Assembly (NCBI RefSeq): GCF_014678725.1
Contig: NZ_CP061497.1
Location: 186,001 to 250,000, forward strand
Length of the DNA: 64,000 bases
Source of the DNA: Thermomonas sp. XSG
Lineage (GTDB): Bacteria > Pseudomonadota > Gammaproteobacteria > Xanthomonadales > Xanthomonadaceae
Direction: 5' to 3'
The notes beneath the pieces were generated by a model. The model searched no databases. It was given only the letters and a program-made list of their open reading frames with translations, and had not been told where the DNA came from. Of the stretch, positions 29,044 through 38,908 are shown one piece after another. Positions within the stretch are counted from its first letter, which is position 1, and each line of letters begins with the position of its first letter. Both the position numbers and the translations under genes were made by a program.

Positions 29044-30432
29044 TCACCCGACGCCAGCGCGCGTTCCTTCGGTATCGCCAGTCGTCGCAGCGGCACCACT
29101 GCGGCGGGAGCCGCGGGGACTGGCATCCGCGAGACTGGCCAGCATCAACCCCGCCAGTGCCCCGGTCGTCGACATCAACGCAAGCGTGCGCAAGGGATAG
29201 TCCGCCCACGAATGCGCCAGTACGGCGCAGATGGCGACAAAACAGCCGGCCGCGAGCGCGGCGCTGCGCCCCTCACTCCGGACGAGCTGCCAGCCCGAGA
29301 CCGCCAGCAGTCCGAGAACCAGCGCCAGCACCGCCATCCCCACCCAACCGGTGGCCAGCCACCACTGGGCATACTCGTTGTGGGCGTGGTTGACGTAACT
29401 GGCCAGCTGCAGCTGCGGCGGCGCAGCCTGCGCGAATACCGGAATAAATGCGCCAATGCCGGCACCCAGCGGCGCCTGGGCCTGGCCCGCCTTGAGCGTG
29501 GCAGCCGCCATGACGTGTCGCAGCTCCTCCGCCTGGTCGACCGCCATCCAGCCCATTGCCGCGCGCACGCCGATCACGGCCAACACTGCCACGCCCGCCA
29601 CGAGCAGCGCGGAACGCCTGCTGCGTCCGATCTCGCGCAACCGCAGCGCTCCCGTGAGCAGCAACGCCAGCGCCAGCGCCGGCAGTGCGATCGCCATGCC
29701 GGCACGCGAAGTGGACAGAGGCACCATCAGCAGGAAGAAGCCCGCCAGGCCCAGATACCACCAACGGCGATGCGGATGGGCCTGGCCACGCCGCGCGCGC
29801 AGGCGGGCCTCTGCCGCCAACCCCACCGCCAGCGCCATGCCGATGATGCAGGCAGTCGCCTGGTGGTTGGTATTGGCAAGCAGGCCGCCAAACCCGGCGT
29901 TGAAGTCCTGGTAAAGGCGCAGCGCGCTGTCGCGCGGCAGTCCGGCCTGGAAGAATGCAAACAGTACGTTGGCGGCCAGCACCACCACGACAGCCTGCAC
30001 CAGTCGCCGCCGCTGCGACTGGCTCAGTGCGGCCGCGGCGAGGAACGCCGCCACTGCCGGCAACAGCGCCCACAGTCCCTGCTCGGTCGCGAACGGCGAC
30101 AGGCTCCAGCGCGGCGCCGCCGCGACGCCTGCACTGGCCAGATCCGCGTGCAGCAGCTGGCGCGCCGGGGCAATCGCGCCGCCAGCAACCGGCAGCAGCT
30201 GCATGATCGGCACCAGCAGCACCAACGACACCGCAACGACGCCCCAGGCCACCGGCCCCGGCAAACCATCTTCGACGAGCACGCCCACCGCCAGCAGCAG
30301 CACCGGCAGCGCCAGCAGCTGCAGCCACTCATCAATGGCGGTGTCATCGGCGGTCACCCCGCCACCCAGCCAGCAGGCAATCAGCAGGATGAGGGTGGCA
30401 GGCAGCAGCAGGCGACGGGCAGATGCTTGCAT
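29044..30432 (-). CDS. O-antigen ligase/polymerase-type membrane protein
   Basis: 462 residues from ATG 30432. About 11 to 12 hydrophobic helices. The Wzy_C signature region is visible: VPLSTSRAGMAIALPALALAL near 235 and the long periplasmic loop with YVNHAHNEYAQWWLATGWVG near 355, the conserved His/Asn motif of polymerases that join lipid-linked sugar units. The upstream cytoplasmic motif NTNHQATACIIGMALA fits exopolysaccharide polymerases. Last gene of the exopolysaccharide locus; separated from the small secreted protein by an intrinsic terminator, so its dose depends on read-through or an unseen promoter. Confidence 0.88.
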   Translation of the reverse strand: MQASARRLLLPATLILLIACWLGGGVTADDTAIDEWLQLLALPVLLLAVGVLVEDGLPGPVAWGVVAVSLVLLVPIMQLLPVAGGAIAPARQLLHADLASAGVAAAPRWSLSPFATEQGLWALLPAVAAFLAAAALSQSQRRRLVQAVVVVLAANVLFAFFQAGLPRDSALRLYQDFNAGFGGLLANTNHQATACIIGMALAVGLAAEARLRARRGQAHPHRRWWYLGLAGFFLLMVPLSTSRAGMAIALPALALALLLTGALRLREIGRSRRSALLVAGVAVLAVIGVRAAMGWMAVDQAEELRHVMAAATLKAGQAQAPLGAGIGAFIPVFAQAAPPQLQLASYVNHAHNEYAQWWLATGWVGMAVLALVLGLLAVSGWQLVRSEGRSAALAAGCFVAICAVLAHSWADYPLRTLALMSTTGALAGLMLASLADASPRGSRRSGAAATTGDTEGTRAGVG

Positions 30433-30465
30433 CGGTGAACGGACTCCGACGAAGGGGAAACGAAA

Positions 30466-30491
30466 CAGGGCAGGTCTCTCGACCTGCCCTG
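30466..30491 (-). terminator. Intrinsic terminator after the FecR-like gene
   Basis: Perfect 11-base stem CAGGGCAGGTC/GACCTGCCCTG with a four-base loop, followed on the minus strand by TTTCGTTTCC. It lies 36 bases after the stop at 30527 and before the polymerase ATG at 30432. Confidence 0.8.
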
Positions 30492-30526
30492 CTGTGTTCG
30501 ACACGAGGCGCGCAAGCGCGCTGCCA

Positions 30527-30943
30527 TCAGAAGTGGCGGATACCGGTGCTCAGCGGACCAGCCGGCGTCTTGTCTTCGTTTTCGATCACGCCGGCTGCGA
30601 CCAGCGCGGAGATCGCGATGATGCCGGCATTCATGGCCGAGCTGCCACCGGTCTGACCCGGCACCGCGTTGCACTGGCTCGGCACGGTGTAGATGCCCGG
30701 CTGGTCGAGCTTGATCTTGCAGCCATTGCCGTAGGTCAGGAAGCCGCTGGAGCCGGCGTTGACCATGACCTTCTGACCCGCAGCCAGAGACTGGCCGCTG
30801 CTGGCGGATGCGTATTCGCCGCCGGCGCTGGTCATGATCGAACCACTCTCGACCTGCAAGGTGGCGCTGACGGGCTCCTGGGCAAACGCGGGGGTGGCGA
30901 ATGCAGCGGCGGCGGCAAGCAGTGCGGCGGCGATCTTGGTCAT
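30527..30943 (-). CDS. Small secreted FecR-like protein of the exopolysaccharide locus
   Basis: 138 residues from ATG 30943 with AAGGATG upstream. Signal peptide MTKIAAALLAAAAAFATPAFA, then a short beta-rich stretch (VSATLQVESGSIMTSAGGE, SLAAGQKVMVNAGSSGFLTYG, KIKLDQPGIYTVP) resembling the FecR fold, with two Cys (in GNGCKIKL and PSQCNAVP) that could pair. A C-terminal hydrophobic segment (NAGIIAISALVAAGVI) may anchor it. Function unknown. It has its own promoter and a strong terminator, so it is probably made at a different level from its neighbours; secreted structural or regulatory roles are both possible. Confidence 0.8.
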   Translation of the reverse strand: MTKIAAALLAAAAAFATPAFAQEPVSATLQVESGSIMTSAGGEYASASSGQSLAAGQKVMVNAGSSGFLTYGNGCKIKLDQPGIYTVPSQCNAVPGQTGGSSAMNAGIIAISALVAAGVIENEDKTPAGPLSTGIRHF

Positions 30944-31036: not shown

Positions 31037-32260
31037 TCATTCAGGTTGCCGCTTCAACCGGAAGCCGGTCAGCCACAGGTCACCCGCAACCTGCTGCCCT
31101 GCCCCACTGGGCACGGGATTTTCCAGACGGAGCCATTGTCCGGGACACCCTACAGGAGGCACCGTGAATTCCATGTCGACATCCATCCAGTCGAAACTCC
31201 CTTGGAGCGCCTCACTCCTTCCCACCACGCGCGCCGGCCCGGCACAGGCAATGCGCCATTGCAGCCCCATTTCGCTCCGCACCGCTCGGGCACGAGCACG
31301 CAAGAGCATCCGATAACGCCCGGGTGCGAGCATCAATGCCTGCTCCAGTCCGGCATTCGGCACGCGCCGACCAAGGAACTGCAGGTGGACGATCCGGCTG
31401 CCGGCCTCTTTCCCTGGCTCGAACTCCATGAGCACGCCAGGCACGCGCCGGCGACGCCAGTCAAACCCGGTGCCGGACGGATCCAATGCAAAGTCGCCGT
31501 TGTAGAGGAGTGGCAATCGGCCGCCGGGTTTGTTGGCGCTGCTCGCCCAGCGTGCATACGCTTCGCCCCAACGCCCTTGACTGATCAGGCCATCAAGCCA
31601 GCGCGAGTACTCATCCGCCGACAATCCACCCTCGTCCTGCAGGGCCTGCATCACCTGCCCTGCAGCCAAGGGACTGCCGGTTTTCGGATGGCGCAGCGCC
31701 GCCAACACGCCTGCGCGCCACGGGGGATCGCTGCGCAGGACCTGCGCCAGCGCCTTTGCAAACACGGCATCCTGCGCCATCTGTACCAAGGCAGGATGGA
31801 CCTTGTCGGTACGCCATGGCGCCACCCGCAGCAACGCATCGATCTGCACCAGCGCCTGCGGATAGTCGCCCTGCTGCAGGAAGTGTCGCGCCAGCCAGGC
31901 GCGCGTTGCCTGGTCGCGCGGCGCGCGGCGCGCGGCGATCTGGTAAAGCTGCAGCGCCCGCTCCTGGTCGCCCTCCCGCTCGCTGGTAGCAGCGAGGATC
32001 CGGAATGCCTGTCCCTGCAATGGCTCGCGCTCCAGCAGCCGCGTGGCGGTCACTCTCGCCGCGGCCGCATTGCCGTCTGCCAACTGGCGTTCGGCCAATC
32101 CGAGCAGTGCGGCGGGATCACCTGGGCGCCAGCGCAGGGCGCGCAGCGGATCGCTTGATGCGTAGCGCTCCGCCTGCATCTGGCCCACCACGCGCCACCC
32201 GGCAAAAAGGCATGCCAAGGCAACCGCCGCCAGCACAAGCCGGCCTGACAACACCCTCAT
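31037..32260 (-). CDS. Membrane-anchored TPR protein with C-terminal jelly-roll-like domain
   Basis: 407 residues from ATG 32260, whose ATGA overlaps the stop of the J-domain gene. N-terminal membrane anchor (MRVLSGRLVLAAVALACLFAGWRVV), TPR-like helical repeats (about 40-170: PAALLGLAERQLADGNAAAA, QAFRILAATSEREGDQERAL, ATRAWLARHFLQQGDYPQAL), then a region that begins LLYNGDFALDPSGTGFDWR near 255 and alternates strands to the end (YRMLLRARARAVRSEMGLQW). The last part resembles galactose-binding or carbohydrate-binding jelly rolls by eye. Probably periplasmic, perhaps bridging polymer and the assembly machine. No family name is certain. Confidence 0.75.
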   Translation of the reverse strand: MRVLSGRLVLAAVALACLFAGWRVVGQMQAERYASSDPLRALRWRPGDPAALLGLAERQLADGNAAAARVTATRLLEREPLQGQAFRILAATSEREGDQERALQLYQIAARRAPRDQATRAWLARHFLQQGDYPQALVQIDALLRVAPWRTDKVHPALVQMAQDAVFAKALAQVLRSDPPWRAGVLAALRHPKTGSPLAAGQVMQALQDEGGLSADEYSRWLDGLISQGRWGEAYARWASSANKPGGRLPLLYNGDFALDPSGTGFDWRRRRVPGVLMEFEPGKEAGSRIVHLQFLGRRVPNAGLEQALMLAPGRYRMLLRARARAVRSEMGLQWRIACAGPARVVGRSEALQGSFDWMDVDMEFTVPPVGCPGQWLRLENPVPSGAGQQVAGDLWLTGFRLKRQPE

Positions 32261-33645
32261 CGGGTCGACTCCATGTCCATTCCTGTCACCAGCCAGTAGC
32301 CATCGCGCCAGCGCAGACGCGCAGTCAACACGCCACCGCGCGGCGCACGCCCCGCAACAACCGCGGATTCGAGCACTGCATTGTCGCTGCCGATCCGCCA
32401 TTGCGCTTCGCCGAGCCGCACCCGTCCCTCGGCGTGCAATTCTTGCCGCAAGCGCGCGGCGTCCGTCTCGACGGCCGGACTGCTCCAGATCGGCGGTGCC
32501 GGCCTGCGCGGCGCACGGAGATAGTCGAGGAGCTGCGCCCCGGTCAAGCGGGCCGACTCCACCTTTGCGAATTCCGGTTGCACCACAGATGGAGAAGCTG
32601 GCGATGTCTCCGTCGGCACCGACGCCTGATTGCCGACGGCAGCCGGACGCTGCGTGACGGCCTGCTGGTGTTGATGGGCAGAAATGCTTACCGCCCGACC
32701 TGCGGCAAGTGCAGGTTGGTGGGCGATAGCGCCGGGGAGGCTGGGCGCTCCGGACCCTGCAGCGTCGCTGGCGGGATACCGGCCAGCCATTGGAATGGAG
32801 GACGCCTGTTCGGCTTGCGGAAGCGCGCTGACGCCGATCCGTGATTCCGTCGGATGCGGATTGGCCGGCTGCCTTTCCACGCTGGCGTTCTCGCCCTGGC
32901 GCGGAGTCGGCGAGAGCTGCCGCTTGGACACCGCGTCCGCGTCCGCGCCCGGGCTGGGCAGCAGCGATGCGATCGGTTCGGGCTCACGCCTGTGCCCGGC
33001 ATCTGGCGTGACCTGCGAGGCCTCCCATTCCGCATCGGCCCGCTCCATGTCACGCAGCGCCAGCAGCGCAAGCACGCCGCACAGGGCCAGCAATGCCAGC
33101 GCGGGCCAGCGCCGCCGCCACGGCGAAGGCGGCACGACCGGCTCGGCTGCCGGCACCCAGGTCCGCACACTGCGCAGCGCGCCACTGCTGTCGAAGATCT
33201 CCGGCGGCCGCGCTGCCCGCAACGCGTCGTCATACGCCCGCCGCCGCTCGGCACTACGCAGACGGTTCCAGGCACTGTTGACCCGCGCGGCGAACACCAC
33301 GTCGTCCTCGCTACGGGTGCGATCCGGATGCAGCCACAGCTGCAACAGGCGGTAATGACCCTTGATGGTGTCGGCGCTGGCCTGGGGATCGACGCCGAGC
33401 ACCCGGTAGGCATCTGCCTGCGGATGGAACAGGACCTCGCGGGCGTAGAAGCGGGCGGCCTCCAGCACCTGCGCTTCGCTTTCGCCAAACCGCCGCGCCT
33501 GTTCGGCAAGGACTTCAGGCGCTGCACCGGCGGCGATGCCCAGCAACTCCTCCATGCCCTCCTGCGGCAGCGGACGCTGCCGCAATACATGCCGTTCGCC
33601 AGGCGCCCTCAGCAAGGCCAAGGCCCACTCCAGCGCGCTCCCCAT
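32257..33645 (-). CDS. Membrane-tethered J-domain protein of the exopolysaccharide locus
   Basis: About 462 residues from ATG 33645; a GTG at 33657 would add four. A helical N-terminus is followed by a J domain (roughly 80-140 of the shorter form) with YRVLGVDPQASADTIKGHY, the HPD motif in LWLHPDRT and the closing RRRAYDDAL. Next come a single membrane helix (RWPALALLALCGVLALLAL, about 180-198), a long Pro/Ser/Gln-rich linker, and a C-terminal beta-rich domain (RVRLGEAQWRIGSDNAVLE, LRWRDGYWLVTGMDME). The J part should be cytoplasmic and able to recruit DnaK; the tail periplasmic. It starts right after the kinase stop and overlaps the TPR gene, so it belongs to this operon. Role unknown. Confidence 0.82.
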   Translation of the reverse strand: MGSALEWALALLRAPGERHVLRQRPLPQEGMEELLGIAAGAAPEVLAEQARRFGESEAQVLEAARFYAREVLFHPQADAYRVLGVDPQASADTIKGHYRLLQLWLHPDRTRSEDDVVFAARVNSAWNRLRSAERRRAYDDALRAARPPEIFDSSGALRSVRTWVPAAEPVVPPSPWRRRWPALALLALCGVLALLALRDMERADAEWEASQVTPDAGHRREPEPIASLLPSPGADADAVSKRQLSPTPRQGENASVERQPANPHPTESRIGVSALPQAEQASSIPMAGRYPASDAAGSGAPSLPGAIAHQPALAAGRAVSISAHQHQQAVTQRPAAVGNQASVPTETSPASPSVVQPEFAKVESARLTGAQLLDYLRAPRRPAPPIWSSPAVETDAARLRQELHAEGRVRLGEAQWRIGSDNAVLESAVVAGRAPRGGVLTARLRWRDGYWLVTGMDMESTR

Positions 33646-33660
33646 CGCGCCGCCCACTCC

Positions 33661-35958
33661 TCAGCCCTTGGTCAGCCGCGGCTTGTCGCCGTAGGAGTAG
33701 TACGCGTAGGCGCCACCGTAGCCATAGCCGTAGCCATAACCGGCGGCGCGGGCGTCGTACTTGGTCAGCAGTCCACCCAGGAGGCGCGCACGCGCGGCAT
33801 ACAGTCGCTTGAGCGCGGCCTGCGCGGCGCCGATCTTGGTCTTGGCACTGTTGACGACCAGCAGGGTGCCATCAATCGCGTTGGCCAAGATCGGGGCATC
33901 GGCCAAGCCCAGTACCGGCGGTCCGTCGATGATCACGTGGTCGTATCGCTCCGTGCCGACCGTCAGCAGCGACACCAGCTTCGAGCCGGACAGCAGCTCC
34001 GCCGGGTTGGGCGGCAGGGGCCCGGCAAGGATGACGTGCAGGCGCTCGTCCTCCGTGCGCTGGACGGCTGCGCCGAACGTGCAACCGCCGGCGAGGAGAT
34101 GGCTGAGCCCCGACTCGGCCTTCAATCCGAGCGTCTTGTGCAGCGATGGTTTGCGCAGGTCCGCATCCACCAGCAGCACGCGCTTGCCGAGTTGGGTGAG
34201 GTTGCGCGCCAGCGCCAGGGCGGTGGTCGACTTGCCTTCACCGGGGCCACTGCTGGTGACCAGCAGGCTCTTGGGTACGCCGTGGTCGGTGGCGAACTGC
34301 AGCGCGGTGCGTACCGAACGGTAGGCCTCGGAGAACGAGGACTGCAGGTCGGAGGCAACGTCACTCAGGTTGTCCTTGGGGCCAAGCTTGGGAATGATCC
34401 CCAGCACCGGCAGCTTGAGCTTCTGTTCGACATCGTCTGGCGTCTTGATGGTGTCGTCGAGGAACTCCAGCAGGAACGCGGCCAGCACGCCCAGCATCGC
34501 CCCGAGCAGCAGCCCGATGGCGAGGTTGAGGGTGAGGTTGGGCTTGAAGCGCCAGCGCGGCACTTCCGCTCGATCGATGATGGAGATGTTGTTGGCGCGG
34601 ACGTCGCCAGCCACGCCGACTTCCTTGAAGCGCTGCAGCAGGCCGTCGTAGAGCTGGCGGTTGGTGTCGACCTCGCGCTTGAGGATGTTGTACTGGATGC
34701 TGCGGCCGTCCACGTCCAGGGCCTGGGTACGCAGCGCGGCGATCTGCTGGGTCAGCATCTGCTCCTGCGCGGCGGCGGCATCGTACTCGGCGCGGACGGA
34801 GGCACGCACGCCGGCGGTTTCCTTGACAATCTGCCGGTCCAGCTCATCGATCTGGCTCTTGAGCTGCTGCATCTCCGGATAGTCAGGCTTGAAGGTCTGC
34901 AGCTTCAGCTGGTACTGCGACTGCAGTTCTCCCTTCTGCTGCTGCAGCACCCGGATGTTGGAGTTGCCGATCATGTCGGCCGGCATCGCCCCCGACGACG
35001 CCTGCCGCCAGCGCGCCTGCGCGCGGATGCGCTGGTCCTGCGCCGTGGCCAGCGCGGCGTTGAGCTGGGTCAGGTTCTGCACCGCGAGCGACTGCCCGTT
35101 TTCGCCGGTGTTGATCAGGTTTTCCTGCTGGGCGAACTGCACCAGCTTGCGCTCGGAATCCTCCAGCTTGGCCTTGGTGAGCTTCAGCTGGTCTTCCAGA
35201 TAGGTCTTTGCGTAGGACGAAGCACCGAACCGTCGCTCCAGCCCGGAGGCGATGTAACCCTCCGCAATGGCGTTGGCCGCACGCGCCGAAAATTGCGGCG
35301 AAGGGCTGTCGAAATTGATCTTGACAAGCCGGGAGTTGCGCACCGGCTCGATGCTCAGGCTGTTGCCGATCAGTGTGGCGGCGTCGCGCAGCTCGGCTGC
35401 CGCATCGCTTGTGGACGCGATTGCCTGCTTGTTTTCTTCCTGCTTGCCCTTCGGCTTCAGCAACGCCAGCATCCGCCCCAGCCAGCCCGGCTCACTGAGC
35501 CGGTCCAGCGCAGCCCGGTCCAGCCCCAGTTCGTTCGCCACGCGCTCGGCGAGCGAACGGCTCTTGATCAACTCGTACTGGGTCTGCAGGAACGCCGGAT
35601 CAAAGCCGCGGTCATCGCCGGGCTGGATGCCGTCCACCTGGACTACCTGGATGCCTTCCTTGTCCAGCTGCAGGAGGGTCGTGGCGCGGTAGATCGGCGT
35701 CGCGGTAAGGGTTGCCAGCAACGCGACCGCAACCACCCCGGCCAGCACGCTGGCGATCAGGCGGCGGCGCTTGACCAGGATCCGCCAGTAGGCAAGCAGA
35801 TCAATTTCGTCGTCATCGTGGCGTTCCTCCTGTGCCTCCAGCACCAGAGCGGTACCGCCGCGATGCAGGTCGACCCCGCCCGCCCTGCCCACCTCGGCGC
35901 GCGCCGGCAGGCCTCGTTTGTCGTCGGCCGGCCCCGCCGGCAGGTTTTCGTCAGTCAT
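33661..35958 (-). CDS. Polysaccharide co-polymerase/tyrosine autokinase (Wzc/GumC type)
   Basis: 765 residues. Inner-membrane BY-kinase controlling chain length and export. An N-terminal Wzz domain opens with EIDLLAYWRILVKRRRLIASVLAG (first helix about 63-85), a periplasmic coiled coil (about 240-430), and a second helix near 490 (LTLNLAIGLLLGAMLGVLAAFLLEF). The kinase follows: Walker A SSGPGEGKSTTA near 570, Walker A' LLVDADLRKPS near 597, Walker B HVIIDGPPVLG near 680, and a Tyr-rich tail with eight Tyr in YGYGYGYGGAYAYYSYG, the usual autophosphorylation cluster. It lies 21 bases after the export gene. Confidence 0.95.
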   Translation of the reverse strand: MTDENLPAGPADDKRGLPARAEVGRAGGVDLHRGGTALVLEAQEERHDDDEIDLLAYWRILVKRRRLIASVLAGVVAVALLATLTATPIYRATTLLQLDKEGIQVVQVDGIQPGDDRGFDPAFLQTQYELIKSRSLAERVANELGLDRAALDRLSEPGWLGRMLALLKPKGKQEENKQAIASTSDAAAELRDAATLIGNSLSIEPVRNSRLVKINFDSPSPQFSARAANAIAEGYIASGLERRFGASSYAKTYLEDQLKLTKAKLEDSERKLVQFAQQENLINTGENGQSLAVQNLTQLNAALATAQDQRIRAQARWRQASSGAMPADMIGNSNIRVLQQQKGELQSQYQLKLQTFKPDYPEMQQLKSQIDELDRQIVKETAGVRASVRAEYDAAAAQEQMLTQQIAALRTQALDVDGRSIQYNILKREVDTNRQLYDGLLQRFKEVGVAGDVRANNISIIDRAEVPRWRFKPNLTLNLAIGLLLGAMLGVLAAFLLEFLDDTIKTPDDVEQKLKLPVLGIIPKLGPKDNLSDVASDLQSSFSEAYRSVRTALQFATDHGVPKSLLVTSSGPGEGKSTTALALARNLTQLGKRVLLVDADLRKPSLHKTLGLKAESGLSHLLAGGCTFGAAVQRTEDERLHVILAGPLPPNPAELLSGSKLVSLLTVGTERYDHVIIDGPPVLGLADAPILANAIDGTLLVVNSAKTKIGAAQAALKRLYAARARLLGGLLTKYDARAAGYGYGYGYGGAYAYYSYGDKPRLTKG

Positions 35959-35979
35959 GCGGGAATCGTCCTTGATCTG

Positions 35980-36690
35980 TCAGAACCAGCGGAACACGCC
36001 GATCGCCGGCACGGCTTCGATGAAGCGGCGGAACGCCGATTTGCTGCCGGACTGCTCCACCACGATGATGTCGTCCCCGTATACCTGCGGGTCGTCGATC
36101 ATCCCCTTCCGCACCAGGCGCAGGTCGAAGACCGCGGCCTGGCGCTTGCCCTCCACCTGGCGCATCAGCACGATGCCGCCGAGGTCGGCGATCTTGTCGT
36201 CCACGCCTTCCGCAAGCGCAATGGCCTGCAGCAGGCTGGTCCTGCCGGTGATGGGATAGATGCCCGGTTTCTTCACCGCCCCCTCCAGCGTAATCCGCTG
36301 GCTCGAGTATTCCTTGACGAAGACACTGACCTGGGGGTTCTGCAGGAACCCATCCGCGTATTTCTTCGCCAGCTCCGCTTCCAGTTCGGGGATGGTGCGG
36401 CCACCGGCCATCACCCCACCCACCAGCGGCAGCGAAATCTGGCCGTTGGAATTGACCCGCACTTCCTTGTCCAGGTCCTGCACGCCGAACACGCTGATCT
36501 GCAGCAAATCCATCGCGCCGATGCGGTAGTCGGTCGCACCCTCGTAGGCGCCCGAGGCTGCTGTGGTGTCGGGCGGCGGCAGCGTGGTTACCGCAGACGC
36601 GGCGGCGTCCCGGGGGCCACCGCTGCTGGCGCACGCCGCCAGTAGCAGAACCAGGGTCGATGTCAGCAAGCCACGCATCCAGTTGCGCAT
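35980..36690 (-). CDS. Outer-membrane polysaccharide export lipoprotein (Wza/GumB type)
   Basis: 236 residues. Signal peptide with lipobox LLLAAC (Cys about 20). Poly_export domain YRIGAMDLLQISVFGVQDLDKEV near 54, then SLBB-type repeats (RITLEGAVKKPGIYPI near 130; VYGDDIIVVEQS near 205). It forms the outer-membrane exit pore with the Wzc-type partner encoded next. It has GGAGGA before ATG 36690 and a promoter upstream, so it heads the locus. No wzb-type phosphatase or glycosyltransferase gene follows within the window. Confidence 0.94.
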   Translation of the reverse strand: MRNWMRGLLTSTLVLLLAACASSGGPRDAAASAVTTLPPPDTTAASGAYEGATDYRIGAMDLLQISVFGVQDLDKEVRVNSNGQISLPLVGGVMAGGRTIPELEAELAKKYADGFLQNPQVSVFVKEYSSQRITLEGAVKKPGIYPITGRTSLLQAIALAEGVDDKIADLGGIVLMRQVEGKRQAAVFDLRLVRKGMIDDPQVYGDDIIVVEQSGSKSAFRRFIEAVPAIGVFRWF

Positions 36691-36716
36691 GCACGATCCT
36701 CCGCGGTTGAACCGGC

Positions 36717-36744
36717 ATTATGCGTGGCAGGCAAGCCTGCGCAA
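36717..36744 (-). promoter_or_regulatory. Putative exopolysaccharide promoter with spacer palindrome
   Basis: Minus strand: TTGCGC (36744-36739), 16 bases, CATAAT (36722-36717), about 27 bases before the export-gene ATG. Between the hexamers lies a palindrome, GCAGGC-AA-GCCTGC (36727-36740), which could be an operator. Upstream, TGTGA (within 36754-36760) resembles one half of a Clp/CRP site, but the second half is poor. Confidence 0.5.
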
Positions 36745-36825
36745 CCACACAGAATTCACACGCCGCGAGGTCGGTGCCTCCCGCCCCATTCATGCGATAG
36801 GGAAGCGGGTGGGACGCACCAACAA

Positions 36826-37060: not shown

Positions 37061-38908
37061 TCACGCCGCCACAGCACCCACGCCGGCTGGGGCCCCGGTC
37101 CGCAACGCCGGTGCACCCGGCGAGGCGGCGATACCGTCGTCCTCCGGCACCGACATGAGGTGCACGCCAACGTTCAGCCGCTTGGCCTGCCGCTTGGCGG
37201 CGGCGGCCTGCGAAGCCACCTCCTCGGCGGTGGCGAAGCGTCCCGGCGCGGCCGGGGTCACCCCGATGGTCAGCGTTGTCAGCGGGAACGTGGCGTAACG
37301 CCCGGCACGGTCCTCCCCTTCCAGCACCCCGCGGGCCAAGTCGGCCGGATCGAACAGGGTATGGCTGGCGGCATTGAACTCAGCCACCATATCGGCGCAG
37401 CGACGTTCCCAGTCGTCGCTCTGGAAAAGCACGACGAAATCGTCGCCACCGACATGGCCGACGAAATCCCAACGCGGCTCCGCATGCCGGACCAGCGTAT
37501 TGGCCACCAGCCGGATCATGCGATCTCCACGGAAATAGCCGTACTGGTCGTTATACGGCTTGAAGTGGTTGAGATCGCAATACGCGGCCATGAACGGCTG
37601 GCCGGCGTCGATCAGCCGCGCGATGTGCTCGGCGATGGGAATGTTGCCGGGCAGCAGGGTCAACGGATTGGCGTACCGCGCCGCCTCGATGCGCAGCTCG
37701 GTCACCCGCCGGACGAGCGCCTCGCCGGTACCCACGCCGGCATAACGACCGCCCCGGGTGATGATGAAGCCGTCGGCCAGATAGCGCTGGTCCTCGCCCA
37801 GCAGGATCTCCGACATCGCATCGATGCTCTGCGAGACATCGGCCATGATCGGAGAGGGATGCATCAGCTGGATGCAGGGCTTGCGGCCGAGCAGTTCGCG
37901 CGCGAAAGGCATCGCCATCCGCTCGTTGAAGACGCGGCGGTTGATCAGCCCCTGCGGAAAACCCTCCATGTCGACAACCGGCAGCGCCGGCAGGTGCGGG
38001 TGCTGGCGGAACAGCTGCTCGGCTTCGAAATTGCTGGCCTGCTCGTTGATGGACGGCGCCTCGACCAGCAGGTGTGCAGCGGTCACCCTCGGGAATGCGT
38101 GGCGCTGCCCGTTGACCGGCCACACCGGCAGCTTTTCGCTGGAGGCCTGCAGGGCCTCCCCGGCCACGGTCTCGGCCACCGCCGGCTGCGGACGACCGAG
38201 CAGGAACCCCTGCGCATAGCGGATGCCGAGGTCCTGGATGATCGCCAGGTCCTGGATCCGTTCGACGCCTTCGGCGATCAGGTCGGTCCCCAGGCTGTCC
38301 GCCACCTGCACCAGCGCCCGGACGATGCTGAGGCGGCCGGGGCTCTGGGCGATGTCGTGCACCAGGTAACGGTCGATCTTGACGTAGTCGGGGCCCAGCT
38401 CGTGCCAGAGCTCGAAGTTGGAGTGGCCGTTACCGAAGTCGTCCAGCGCGATCTGCACGCCGGCCGCGCGCAGGTAGCCCAGCGCATCGGCCAGACGACC
38501 GACGTCCTCGACGATGTCGCGCTCGGTGATCTCGATGACGAACCTGCTGAGGTCCTGGCCGGCCGATTGCAGGCTGCACAGGACCTGCTGCGGGCGCAGG
38601 TCTCCCTGCAGGATGGCGTGCGCGCTCAGGTTGACCAGCAGCCGCCCGCCACGGATGAAGTCGAAGGCCTGCGCCAGAGTGCTGGCGGCGTGGGTTTCCA
38701 GCTCGCCCAGGCGGCCCGTGCGCCGCGCATGGTCGAGCAGGCGCAGAGGCGGCACGTCCGCGTGCGCATGGCGCATCAGGCCCTCATGCGCCACCACCTT
38801 GCGGTCTTCCAGCCGGACGATCGGCTGGAACAGGGCGCGCAGGCCGTGGGGCCGCAGGGCGGCGGCAAGCAACGCATCGGACGGATCAGGCAATGGGGCG
38901 GCGCACAT
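37061..38908 (-). CDS. EAL-CBS-GGDDF cyclic-di-GMP protein
   Basis: 615 residues. The N-terminal EAL phosphodiesterase domain (about 20-245) has EGL in place of EAL (E42) but keeps N93, E126 (EITE), D156-D157 (LDDFGNGHSN), K177 (VKID), E213 (EGVE) and Q233, so hydrolysis of cyclic-di-GMP is likely. A CBS pair follows (about 272-400; LPALPVVDMEGFPQGLINRR). The C-terminal diguanylate-cyclase-type domain has GGDDF (487-491), preceded by DLNHFKPYNDQYGYFRGD; the family keeps Asp/Glu at the third position, so synthesis is possible but it may instead sense GTP. No membrane segment or signal peptide: a soluble protein. It stands alone between tRNA-Val and the cys genes. Confidence 0.92.
   Translation of the reverse strand: MCAAPLPDPSDALLAAALRPHGLRALFQPIVRLEDRKVVAHEGLMRHAHADVPPLRLLDHARRTGRLGELETHAASTLAQAFDFIRGGRLLVNLSAHAILQGDLRPQQVLCSLQSAGQDLSRFVIEITERDIVEDVGRLADALGYLRAAGVQIALDDFGNGHSNFELWHELGPDYVKIDRYLVHDIAQSPGRLSIVRALVQVADSLGTDLIAEGVERIQDLAIIQDLGIRYAQGFLLGRPQPAVAETVAGEALQASSEKLPVWPVNGQRHAFPRVTAAHLLVEAPSINEQASNFEAEQLFRQHPHLPALPVVDMEGFPQGLINRRVFNERMAMPFARELLGRKPCIQLMHPSPIMADVSQSIDAMSEILLGEDQRYLADGFIITRGGRYAGVGTGEALVRRVTELRIEAARYANPLTLLPGNIPIAEHIARLIDAGQPFMAAYCDLNHFKPYNDQYGYFRGDRMIRLVANTLVRHAEPRWDFVGHVGGDDFVVLFQSDDWERRCADMVAEFNAASHTLFDPADLARGVLEGEDRAGRYATFPLTTLTIGVTPAAPGRFATAEEVASQAAAAKRQAKRLNVGVHLMSVPEDDGIAASPGAPALRTGAPAGVGAVAA

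Follow-up and report, generated by a model that had tools for sequence, protein, structure and literature searches.

A membrane-anchored J protein encoded behind a Wzc-type tyrosine kinase in Thermomonas sp. XSG, a candidate DnaK co-chaperone in polysaccharide export

J proteins that work on envelope complexes are known from several bacteria. In Escherichia coli, DjlA loosens the IgaA-RcsD interaction if its J domain is functional, and needs its His-Pro-Asp (HPD) motif to do so (PMC11709261); Caulobacter DjlA, again through HPD, supports the AcrAB-NodT pump (PMC10754441). A cyanobacterial DnaK1-DnaJ3-GrpE system is needed for motility polysaccharide (PMC9239167); the system acts on type IV pilus motors, and its DnaJ3 has tetratricopeptide repeats (TPRs) (PMC12288463). 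The tyrosine kinase Wzc forms an octamer that is held by the placing of each tyrosine tail in the active site of its neighbour, and phosphorylation disassembles this ring (PMC8285477, PMC11986026, PMC12881504). Here, a gene for a J-domain protein is described that lies directly behind a wzc-type gene in a stretch of 64,000 nucleotides from Thermomonas sp. XSG (NZ_CP061497.1, positions 186,001 to 250,000; hereafter the window).

The protein belongs to a known kind, the J proteins, but its inferred role is new, its architecture is unusual and its proposed client can be tested. The reading we favour, with a probability of roughly one half, is that the gene encodes a class C J protein, anchored in the membrane and devoted to Wzc, on which it would act directly as a co-chaperone; the broader proposal, of a DnaK co-chaperone that works on the Wzc machine by whatever route, is probable. 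Among the points in favour is the fate of the HPD motif, which is kept where Wzc adjoins (102 of 104 copies) and lost in eight distant copies that lie elsewhere.

Architecture of the J protein

The gene and its parts are as follows, with coordinates in the window and residues (aa) in the protein; pLDDT is the predicted local distance difference test score.

32257..33657, minus strand: J-domain protein gene, 466 aa, GTG start; Pfam PF00226 at 46.6 bits
33430..33636, minus strand: N-terminal five-helix domain, aa 8-76, without a Pfam name; from the AlphaFold model and conserved alignment columns
33229..33414, minus strand: J domain, aa 82-143; Pfam match
33322..33330, minus strand: HPD motif, aa 110-112; read from the sequence
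33043..33108, minus strand: single transmembrane (TM) helix, aa 184-205; TM prediction and model
32593..33042, minus strand: linker rich in Pro, Ala, Ser and Thr, presumed periplasmic; low pLDDT and composition
32263..32577, minus strand: NTF2-like domain, presumed periplasmic, aa 361-465; pLDDT 92.1 and Foldseek

The DnaJ model PF00226 matches residues 82-143 over all of its 63 positions with an E-value of 3.7e-12, and the score lies well above the curated Pfam cut-off of 27.8 bits; with HPD in place, the clear J domain claimed by the original prediction, which was made from the DNA alone, is upheld. Pfam matched only the J domain in this protein, with no DnaJ_C or zinc centre, and neither was found in a tally of the 15 relatives of alignment A1, all of which match Pfam DnaJ (E<=0.1). 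Two relatives were left out of A1: in L027 (loci are numbered L) the J frame is interrupted by stop codons, and in L037 it is shortened, by decay or sequence error in either case. At the sites equivalent to R22, K26, D35 and R36 of E. coli DnaJ, which we take to be its DnaK-contact positions, the larger alignment A4 has K/R in 54, R in 51, D in 56 and R in 53 of its 57 rows, from which truncated, duplicate and the most distant copies were left out; HPD is found in 54 of them. The genome, a single contig of 3.05 Mb, has DnaJ-family matches at five places (E<=0.01), four of them, the window gene included, above the cut-off.

A full-length AlphaFold model (mean pLDDT 76.6, from a 57-row alignment) is made up of five helices at 8-76, J-domain helices at 83-149, a TM helix at 184-205 and an alpha+beta tail at 361-465. 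The conserved N-terminal domain of some 80 residues, which the original prediction had left out, is modelled with pLDDT block means of 92-98 from residue 11, and confidence is low in the linker between TM helix and tail. The earlier description of one membrane helix followed by a Pro/Ser-rich linker agrees with this arrangement. One TM helix is predicted in 54 of 57 J proteins and its N-side flank is more positive than its C-side flank in 45 of the 57, in line with the cytoplasmic J domain already proposed.

The tail had been called beta-rich; a folded domain is indeed present, but the model has it as NTF2-like alpha+beta and not merely beta-rich. A Foldseek search with the whole model gives the CbpA J domain as top match (E 4.6e-4). 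Modelled alone (47-row alignment), the tail returns NTF2-like proteins, the CaMKII hub and the ARC6 intermembrane space (IMS) domain, with a top E-value of 1.9e-3 and none at or below 1e-3. As modelled, the tail resembles an NTF2-like fold, a likeness of fold that is no proof of kinship. SnoaL_2 and DUF4440 match weakly in 9/15 and 5/15 A1 rows respectively (Pfam, E<=0.1), and in L107 the place of the match is the tail.

These parts recall ZipN/Ftn2 and ARC6, and the protein could be a scaffold of that type, its J fold, TM helix and NTF2-like domain bridging cytoplasm and periplasm and keeping the export machine in position with no involvement of Hsp70. The order of J or J-like domain, TM helix and domain past the membrane matches that of ZipN/ARC6; the ARC6 IMS structures 5d9r and 5had appear at ranks 10 and 17 among the tail's Foldseek matches (E 5.9e-3 and 9.3e-3), alongside CaMKII hubs, and ARC6 is described in the consulted sections as J-like and Hsp70-independent.

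Alignment with relatives backs the GTG start at 33657, three bases past the Wzc stop, in place of the start at 33645 given originally. At the other end, the TGA of the J gene (32259-32257) and the ATG of the TPR gene (32260-32258) share the four bases ATGA, and the claimed overlap with the next gene and operon membership stand. The ratio of nonsynonymous to synonymous substitution (dN/dS) is 0.07-0.28 for the N-domain plus J domain (computable in six of the seven pairs) and 0.35-0.64 for the linker (seven pairs); the former is below the linker in 6/6 pairs and below the tail in 5/6. The J open reading frame is under purifying selection. A chance J match was considered and ruled out because of this selection, together with the Pfam score and synteny.

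Association with Wzc and distribution of the cassette

Wzc lies directly upstream of the J gene in 103 of the 111 distinct loci with room for it, and a TPR gene lies downstream in 62 of 72, those without it being L037, L123 and eight distant copies; 115 distinct J cores were obtained across all loci fetched. The arrangement asked about in the original prediction, with the gene always between wzc-type and TPR genes, describes most loci, with exceptions. All 16 relatives first fetched have the order Wza-Wzc-J, 15 have the TPR gene (not L037) and 14 have Wzy (not L037; the contig of L038 ends). This kept order supports the placing of the J gene in an exopolysaccharide operon, a claim that is qualified by cassettes without J in 15 of the 79 TPR-bearing family genomes. 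Neither of the results that would have refuted the original prediction, a window region scoring below J-domain thresholds or a gene scattered without a tie to polysaccharide genes, was encountered, and the association with Wzc is stronger and wider than the original prediction could know.

A protein search found J relatives in 17/149 family genomes, its own included, and a profile search found the J gene in 70/395 (E<1e-20, hand tally). Best scores per genome leave a clear gap between J relatives (at least 79 bits) and ordinary DnaJ (at most 52 bits). The 70 genomes include all 25 own or same-genus rows listed in the profile-search table, off which 29 genomes without a match were left. J matches, some of them tail-only, were found in 19/151 genomes of the order and 17/229 of the class (E<=1e-16). 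J loci are present in gamma- and betaproteobacteria and probably in alphaproteobacteria, and a scan of named genomes yielded 64 loci, including Arenimonas, Tahibacter, Candidatus Competibacter, Contendobacter, Thiobacillus and Dechloromonas. Some of these carriers (Candidatus Competibacter, Thiobacillus and Dechloromonas) are organisms of wastewater and other environmental settings where such polymers matter. Two loci with weak J-profile scores and no cassette genes (L142, L143) are probably chance matches.

In the window, Wza, Wzc and Wzy occur together in a cassette that runs on the minus strand from a Wza-type exporter through Wzc, the J gene, a TPR protein and a small protein to a Wzy/ligase-type polymerase, and grpE, dnaK and dnaJ lie some 12-16 kb from the J gene.

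35980..36690, minus strand: Wza/OPX-type polysaccharide export protein; Poly_export 83.2 bits
33661..35958, minus strand: Wzc-type tyrosine autokinase, directly upstream of the J gene; Wzz, GNVR, AAA_31; TIGR01007 161.6 bits, cut-off 108.05
33664..33753, minus strand: Wzc C-terminal tyrosine cluster and tail GDKPRLTKG; sequence and comparison with relatives
31037..32260, minus strand: TPR protein, apparent N-terminal membrane segment; TPR_19
30527..30943, minus strand: small cassette protein, probably secreted; without a Pfam match, LapA-retention match below cut-off
29044..30504, minus strand: Wzy/O-antigen-ligase-type polymerase; PF04932 52.6 bits
19890..20399, minus strand: grpE; GrpE 153.6 bits
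17864..19858, minus strand: dnaK, presumed partner of the J protein; HSP70 875 bits
16651..17793, minus strand: dnaJ, housekeeping

For the gene upstream of Wzc, a reading frame at 35951-36793 was rejected, the correct one being 35980-36690. No Wzx flippase, glycosyltransferase, initiating transferase, phosphatase or regulator was found among the six operon genes scanned. PF02397 is absent from the whole genome at E<=1e-5, PF00953 is found at three other places and there is one PF01943 match at 1098018. The J gene was also considered as a substitute for a phosphatase and this was rejected: PF01451 is present in 20/24 chosen genomes, 10/11 with J and 10/13 without, so that a missing Wzb fails to explain the J gene. 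The C-terminal half of the TPR protein contains invariant Trp and Cys columns (alignment A3) and is possibly a glycan-binding domain. An EAL-GGDEF protein (37061-38908) is encoded upstream of the operon in the same orientation; this linkage is not conserved, since only 2/16 relatives' regions (L035, L036) gave weak matches.

Divergent copies and cassettes without the J gene

Of the 102 HPD-bearing copies next to Wzc, 101 were counted by script and L104 by hand, the script having taken a weaker upstream match in the same frame although WLHPDR is present. Three further copies at contig edges, with their neighbours off the contig, also have HPD. By contrast, it is found in none of the eight distant homologues that do not stand behind a Wzc of the window type (L145, L146, L149, L150, L152, L153, L154 and L156). 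Polysaccharide genes lie near six of the eight: CpsB/CapC in L145, Poly_export/SLBB in L146, YjbH with Poly_export and Wzz in L156, and a sugar transferase and malectin protein in L154; L150, a congener of L156, has alike Wza and Wzc scores (by profiles, without a Pfam scan) and L153, a congener of L154, has neighbours of like size (a comparison of size only). Among the few neighbours scanned in L149 and L152, no polysaccharide genes were found. The J part of L146 is matched only by the J-protein profile of this analysis (67 bits), with no Pfam match.

Some divergent copies have unusual layouts. One protein of L152 (7757-10414) fuses an AAA_22 ATPase to a J-like domain, and one of L146 (7147-10413) fuses AAA_22 to weakly matched NTF2-like stretches; judging by these sequences, the module seems to have been swapped between ATPase and chaperone-type cytoplasmic heads. 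In L151 (8085-10598) a response-regulator receiver domain follows the J domain and HPD has become YQD, though the gene stands behind Wzc. L155 (9071-11464) has two tandem J-like stretches, neither with HPD, and the Wzc ahead of it lacks the basic/Leu tail discussed below.

The loss of HPD in two Wzc-adjacent and eight distant copies implies that part of the family has, or once had, a role independent of Hsp70. These ten, the eight distant relatives with L151 and L155, keep a J-like fold by profile, as a scaffold would. Retention of HPD in nearly all copies that adjoin Wzc is, however, hard to explain without Hsp70, and a scaffold also fits poorly with four short forms (L121, L124, L128 and L185; 205-255 aa) that stand behind Wzc in alpha-like genomes and have no NTF2-like match. 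On balance the scaffold is unlikely, if a serious contender. That these four still follow Wzc without the NTF2-like tail suggests the cytoplasmic face as the site of action; L121 may keep a TM helix by eye, below the prediction threshold.

The receiver domain of L151 also bears on the idea of a regulator, in which J/DnaK would control polysaccharide output through a signalling or stress pathway, after the manner of DjlA-Rcs or DnaK1-DnaJ3. According to the consulted sections, DjlA overproduction induces Rcs and cyanobacterial DnaK1-DnaJ3-GrpE is needed for hormogonium polysaccharide. The constant neighbour is nevertheless Wzc, with no regulator among the six cassette genes scanned, and this idea is very improbable.

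What of cassettes that lack the J gene altogether? TPR profile matches occur in 79 of 395 family genomes, 64 of them with J and 15 without it; in a further 6, J is unaccompanied by a TPR match. All 15 J-lacking family genomes contributed loci. In 13 of them (L165-L171, L175-L180), Wza, Wzc and TPR genes follow one another on one strand and nothing between them matches J, the TPR start of L165 falling within some 30 bases of the Wzc stop; L232 is Wza-Wzc-TPR without J, and the frames of L231 are broken. On the Wzc tree, whose root the method does not infer, the 14 usable J-lacking family rows group as a single supported clade nested among the J-bearing rows, which fits a single loss. At phylum level the TPR gene is present in 12/249 genomes, and of 11 loci from ten such genomes 10 lack J, L185 alone carrying it; G405 (L158) is also J-bearing. 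At class level the TPR gene is present in 6/229 genomes, the window's own included.

These cassettes bear on two further explanations. The J protein could be a folding or insertion helper that brings DnaK to the membrane to fold newly made Wzc, TPR protein and Wza or to maintain their solubility, as its ATGA-coupled position would suit; Caulobacter DjlA provides a precedent, AcrA being less aggregated when DjlA is overexpressed (consulted sections). Yet sister cassettes with homologous Wza, Wzc, TPR protein and mostly Wzy lack J, and a general helper would not be so bound to one operon, which makes this distinctly unlikely. The existence of J-lacking cassettes would also be expected of a passenger gene with no polysaccharide role, a notion that lasting synteny and purifying selection render barely credible.

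The Wzc tail and a proposed chaperone step

If the J protein is a co-chaperone of Wzc, where would it act? The C-terminal tail of Wzc is a tentative answer, less likely than not to be the right one. In J-bearing loci the tyrosine cluster is usually followed by a short basic/Leu stretch (e.g., KPRLTKG, KKLARR, AQLTKQ), whereas the Wzc of J-lacking family cassettes ends promptly after the tyrosines (GDGRA, GPKS, GKKAA). DnaK prefers Leu, Ile or Met at a central position with flanking basic residues, according to the consulted part of the source (PMC2717214), and by its sequence the tail of J-bearing Wzc is a candidate DnaK-like site. A rule requiring a basic-flanked aliphatic residue past the last Tyr holds for 64/71 J-bearing and 0/13 J-lacking Wzc in the defining set. 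It was fixed before unseen loci were fetched, and their tails were printed after that and before the count: it holds for 29/29 unseen J-bearing Wzc vs 3/10 J-lacking. L231 and nine duplicates of loci from the earlier set were left out of this test, and the stretch in L187 contains no Tyr. The main separator is the aliphatic residue past the tyrosines, present in 96/100 distinct J-bearing vs 4/23 J-lacking tails, and 65/93 distinct J-bearing tails have K or R before their first Leu. The Wzc proteins of L124 and L128 end RRERLTNTRANG and RREQLTNSQASG; their tyrosine cluster is nearly lost, a single Tyr remaining among the last 30 residues, and the end stretch is R-x-LTN or Q-LTN.

From the observed parts, position and HPD pattern we infer DnaK delivery, with the tail as client and an effect on the ring. 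The N-domain would dock on the cytoplasmic kinase ring of Wzc and the J domain would deliver DnaK-ATP there, allowing DnaK to grip the short basic/Leu tail past the tyrosine cluster (GDKPRLTKG in the window). Pulling or holding the tail could free it from the neighbour's active site, and the chaperone ATPase might then help the octamer to disassemble, or keep freed monomers ready for reassembly, setting the cycle of polymerisation and export. The NTF2-like domain, presumably periplasmic, may keep the J protein in position or act as a sensor of assembly state or of polymer, which would couple the periplasm to chaperone delivery. Uncoating by auxilin and Hsc70 is a comparison for such chaperone-driven disassembly. 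In its most specific form the proposal is an Hsp70 disassembly and recycling factor of the tyrosine-kinase ring, in which the tail passes to DnaK, the chaperone ATPase drives the octamer-monomer cycle beside phosphorylation and Wzb, and an NTF2-like sensor gates it from the periplasm; this is speculative and rather unlikely as a whole.

Several points weigh against the co-chaperone reading. Its support is drawn from sequence, synteny and a model, with DnaK as presumed partner. L151 and L155 adjoin Wzc yet lack HPD, and the J domains of L124 (26.2 bits) and L121 (22.6 bits, part of the model) fall below the 27.8-bit cut-off, which L185 (27.9) just passes. In one pair, L134-L140, the tail evolves more slowly than the N-domain plus J domain. 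Wzc is able to work without J, since many genomes have kept J-lacking cassettes. The tail motif is missing from 7/71 J-bearing Wzc of the defining set and present in the 3/10 unseen J-lacking ones; it also occurs in 36-59% of Wza, TPR and Wzy C-termini and in 81% of shuffled J-bearing tails (a test that included repeats, the counts with and without J being redone without them), so that the motif is driven by composition rather than order. Finally, motif and J gene share a history and the rows are related: the J label changes three times on the Wzc tree, giving from 1 (supported branches) to 3 independent contrasts, too few for the correlation to reach significance.

Comparison with known systems

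Ring disassembly and reset of Wzc are central to capsule and exopolysaccharide export. If the favoured reading is true, a conserved operon-encoded DnaK co-chaperone next to Wzc, present in several lineages of proteobacteria, adds an ATP-driven chaperone step to models built, in the consulted sections, on autophosphorylation and a phosphatase; if the disassembly proposal is true, a bacterial tyrosine-kinase ring has its own Hsp70 factor. Sister cassettes with and without J are a natural comparison. The term "chaperone" is absent from the searched text of three Wzc structure papers and "DnaK" from that of two, and no published description of a Wzc-linked J protein was found in the open-licence literature, judged mostly from listings.

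The cassette shares Wza, a Wzc with a tyrosine tail and a Wzy-type polymerase with Wzx/Wzy export (Wza-Wzc-Wzb), and differs in that none of its six genes encodes a glycosyltransferase, Wzx or phosphatase. With DnaK1-DnaJ3-GrpE it would have in common a dedicated Hsp70 system tied to polysaccharide; that system, as far as the consulted sections state, acts on type IV pilus motors, and no Wzc link is stated there. DjlA is likewise membrane-linked with a cytoplasmic J domain and, together with DnaK, serves membrane complexes and machines that span the envelope. In E. coli DjlA, however, the TM helix is described as lying near the N-terminus and the J domain at the C-terminus, with a TerB-like domain also present, whereas the window protein has its TM helix after the J domain and a large domain beyond; the window protein has no TerB match in Pfam and scores 18.7 bits against the NCBIfam DjlA cut-off of 162.

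ZipN/Ftn2 and ARC6 come closest in layout, being described with an N-terminal J or J-like domain, one TM helix and a domain beyond, which in ARC6 has the IMS fold found among the matches to the modelled tail. The window protein gave no match to ARC6-type families up to E 1 in Pfam and 0.1 in NCBIfam, and is compared with them by description and fold only. In the consulted descriptions ZipN and ARC6 tether FtsZ, Anabaena ZipN has 798 residues and the J fold of ARC6 is Hsp70-independent; the window protein, in contrast, keeps HPD and has Wzc as its neighbour.

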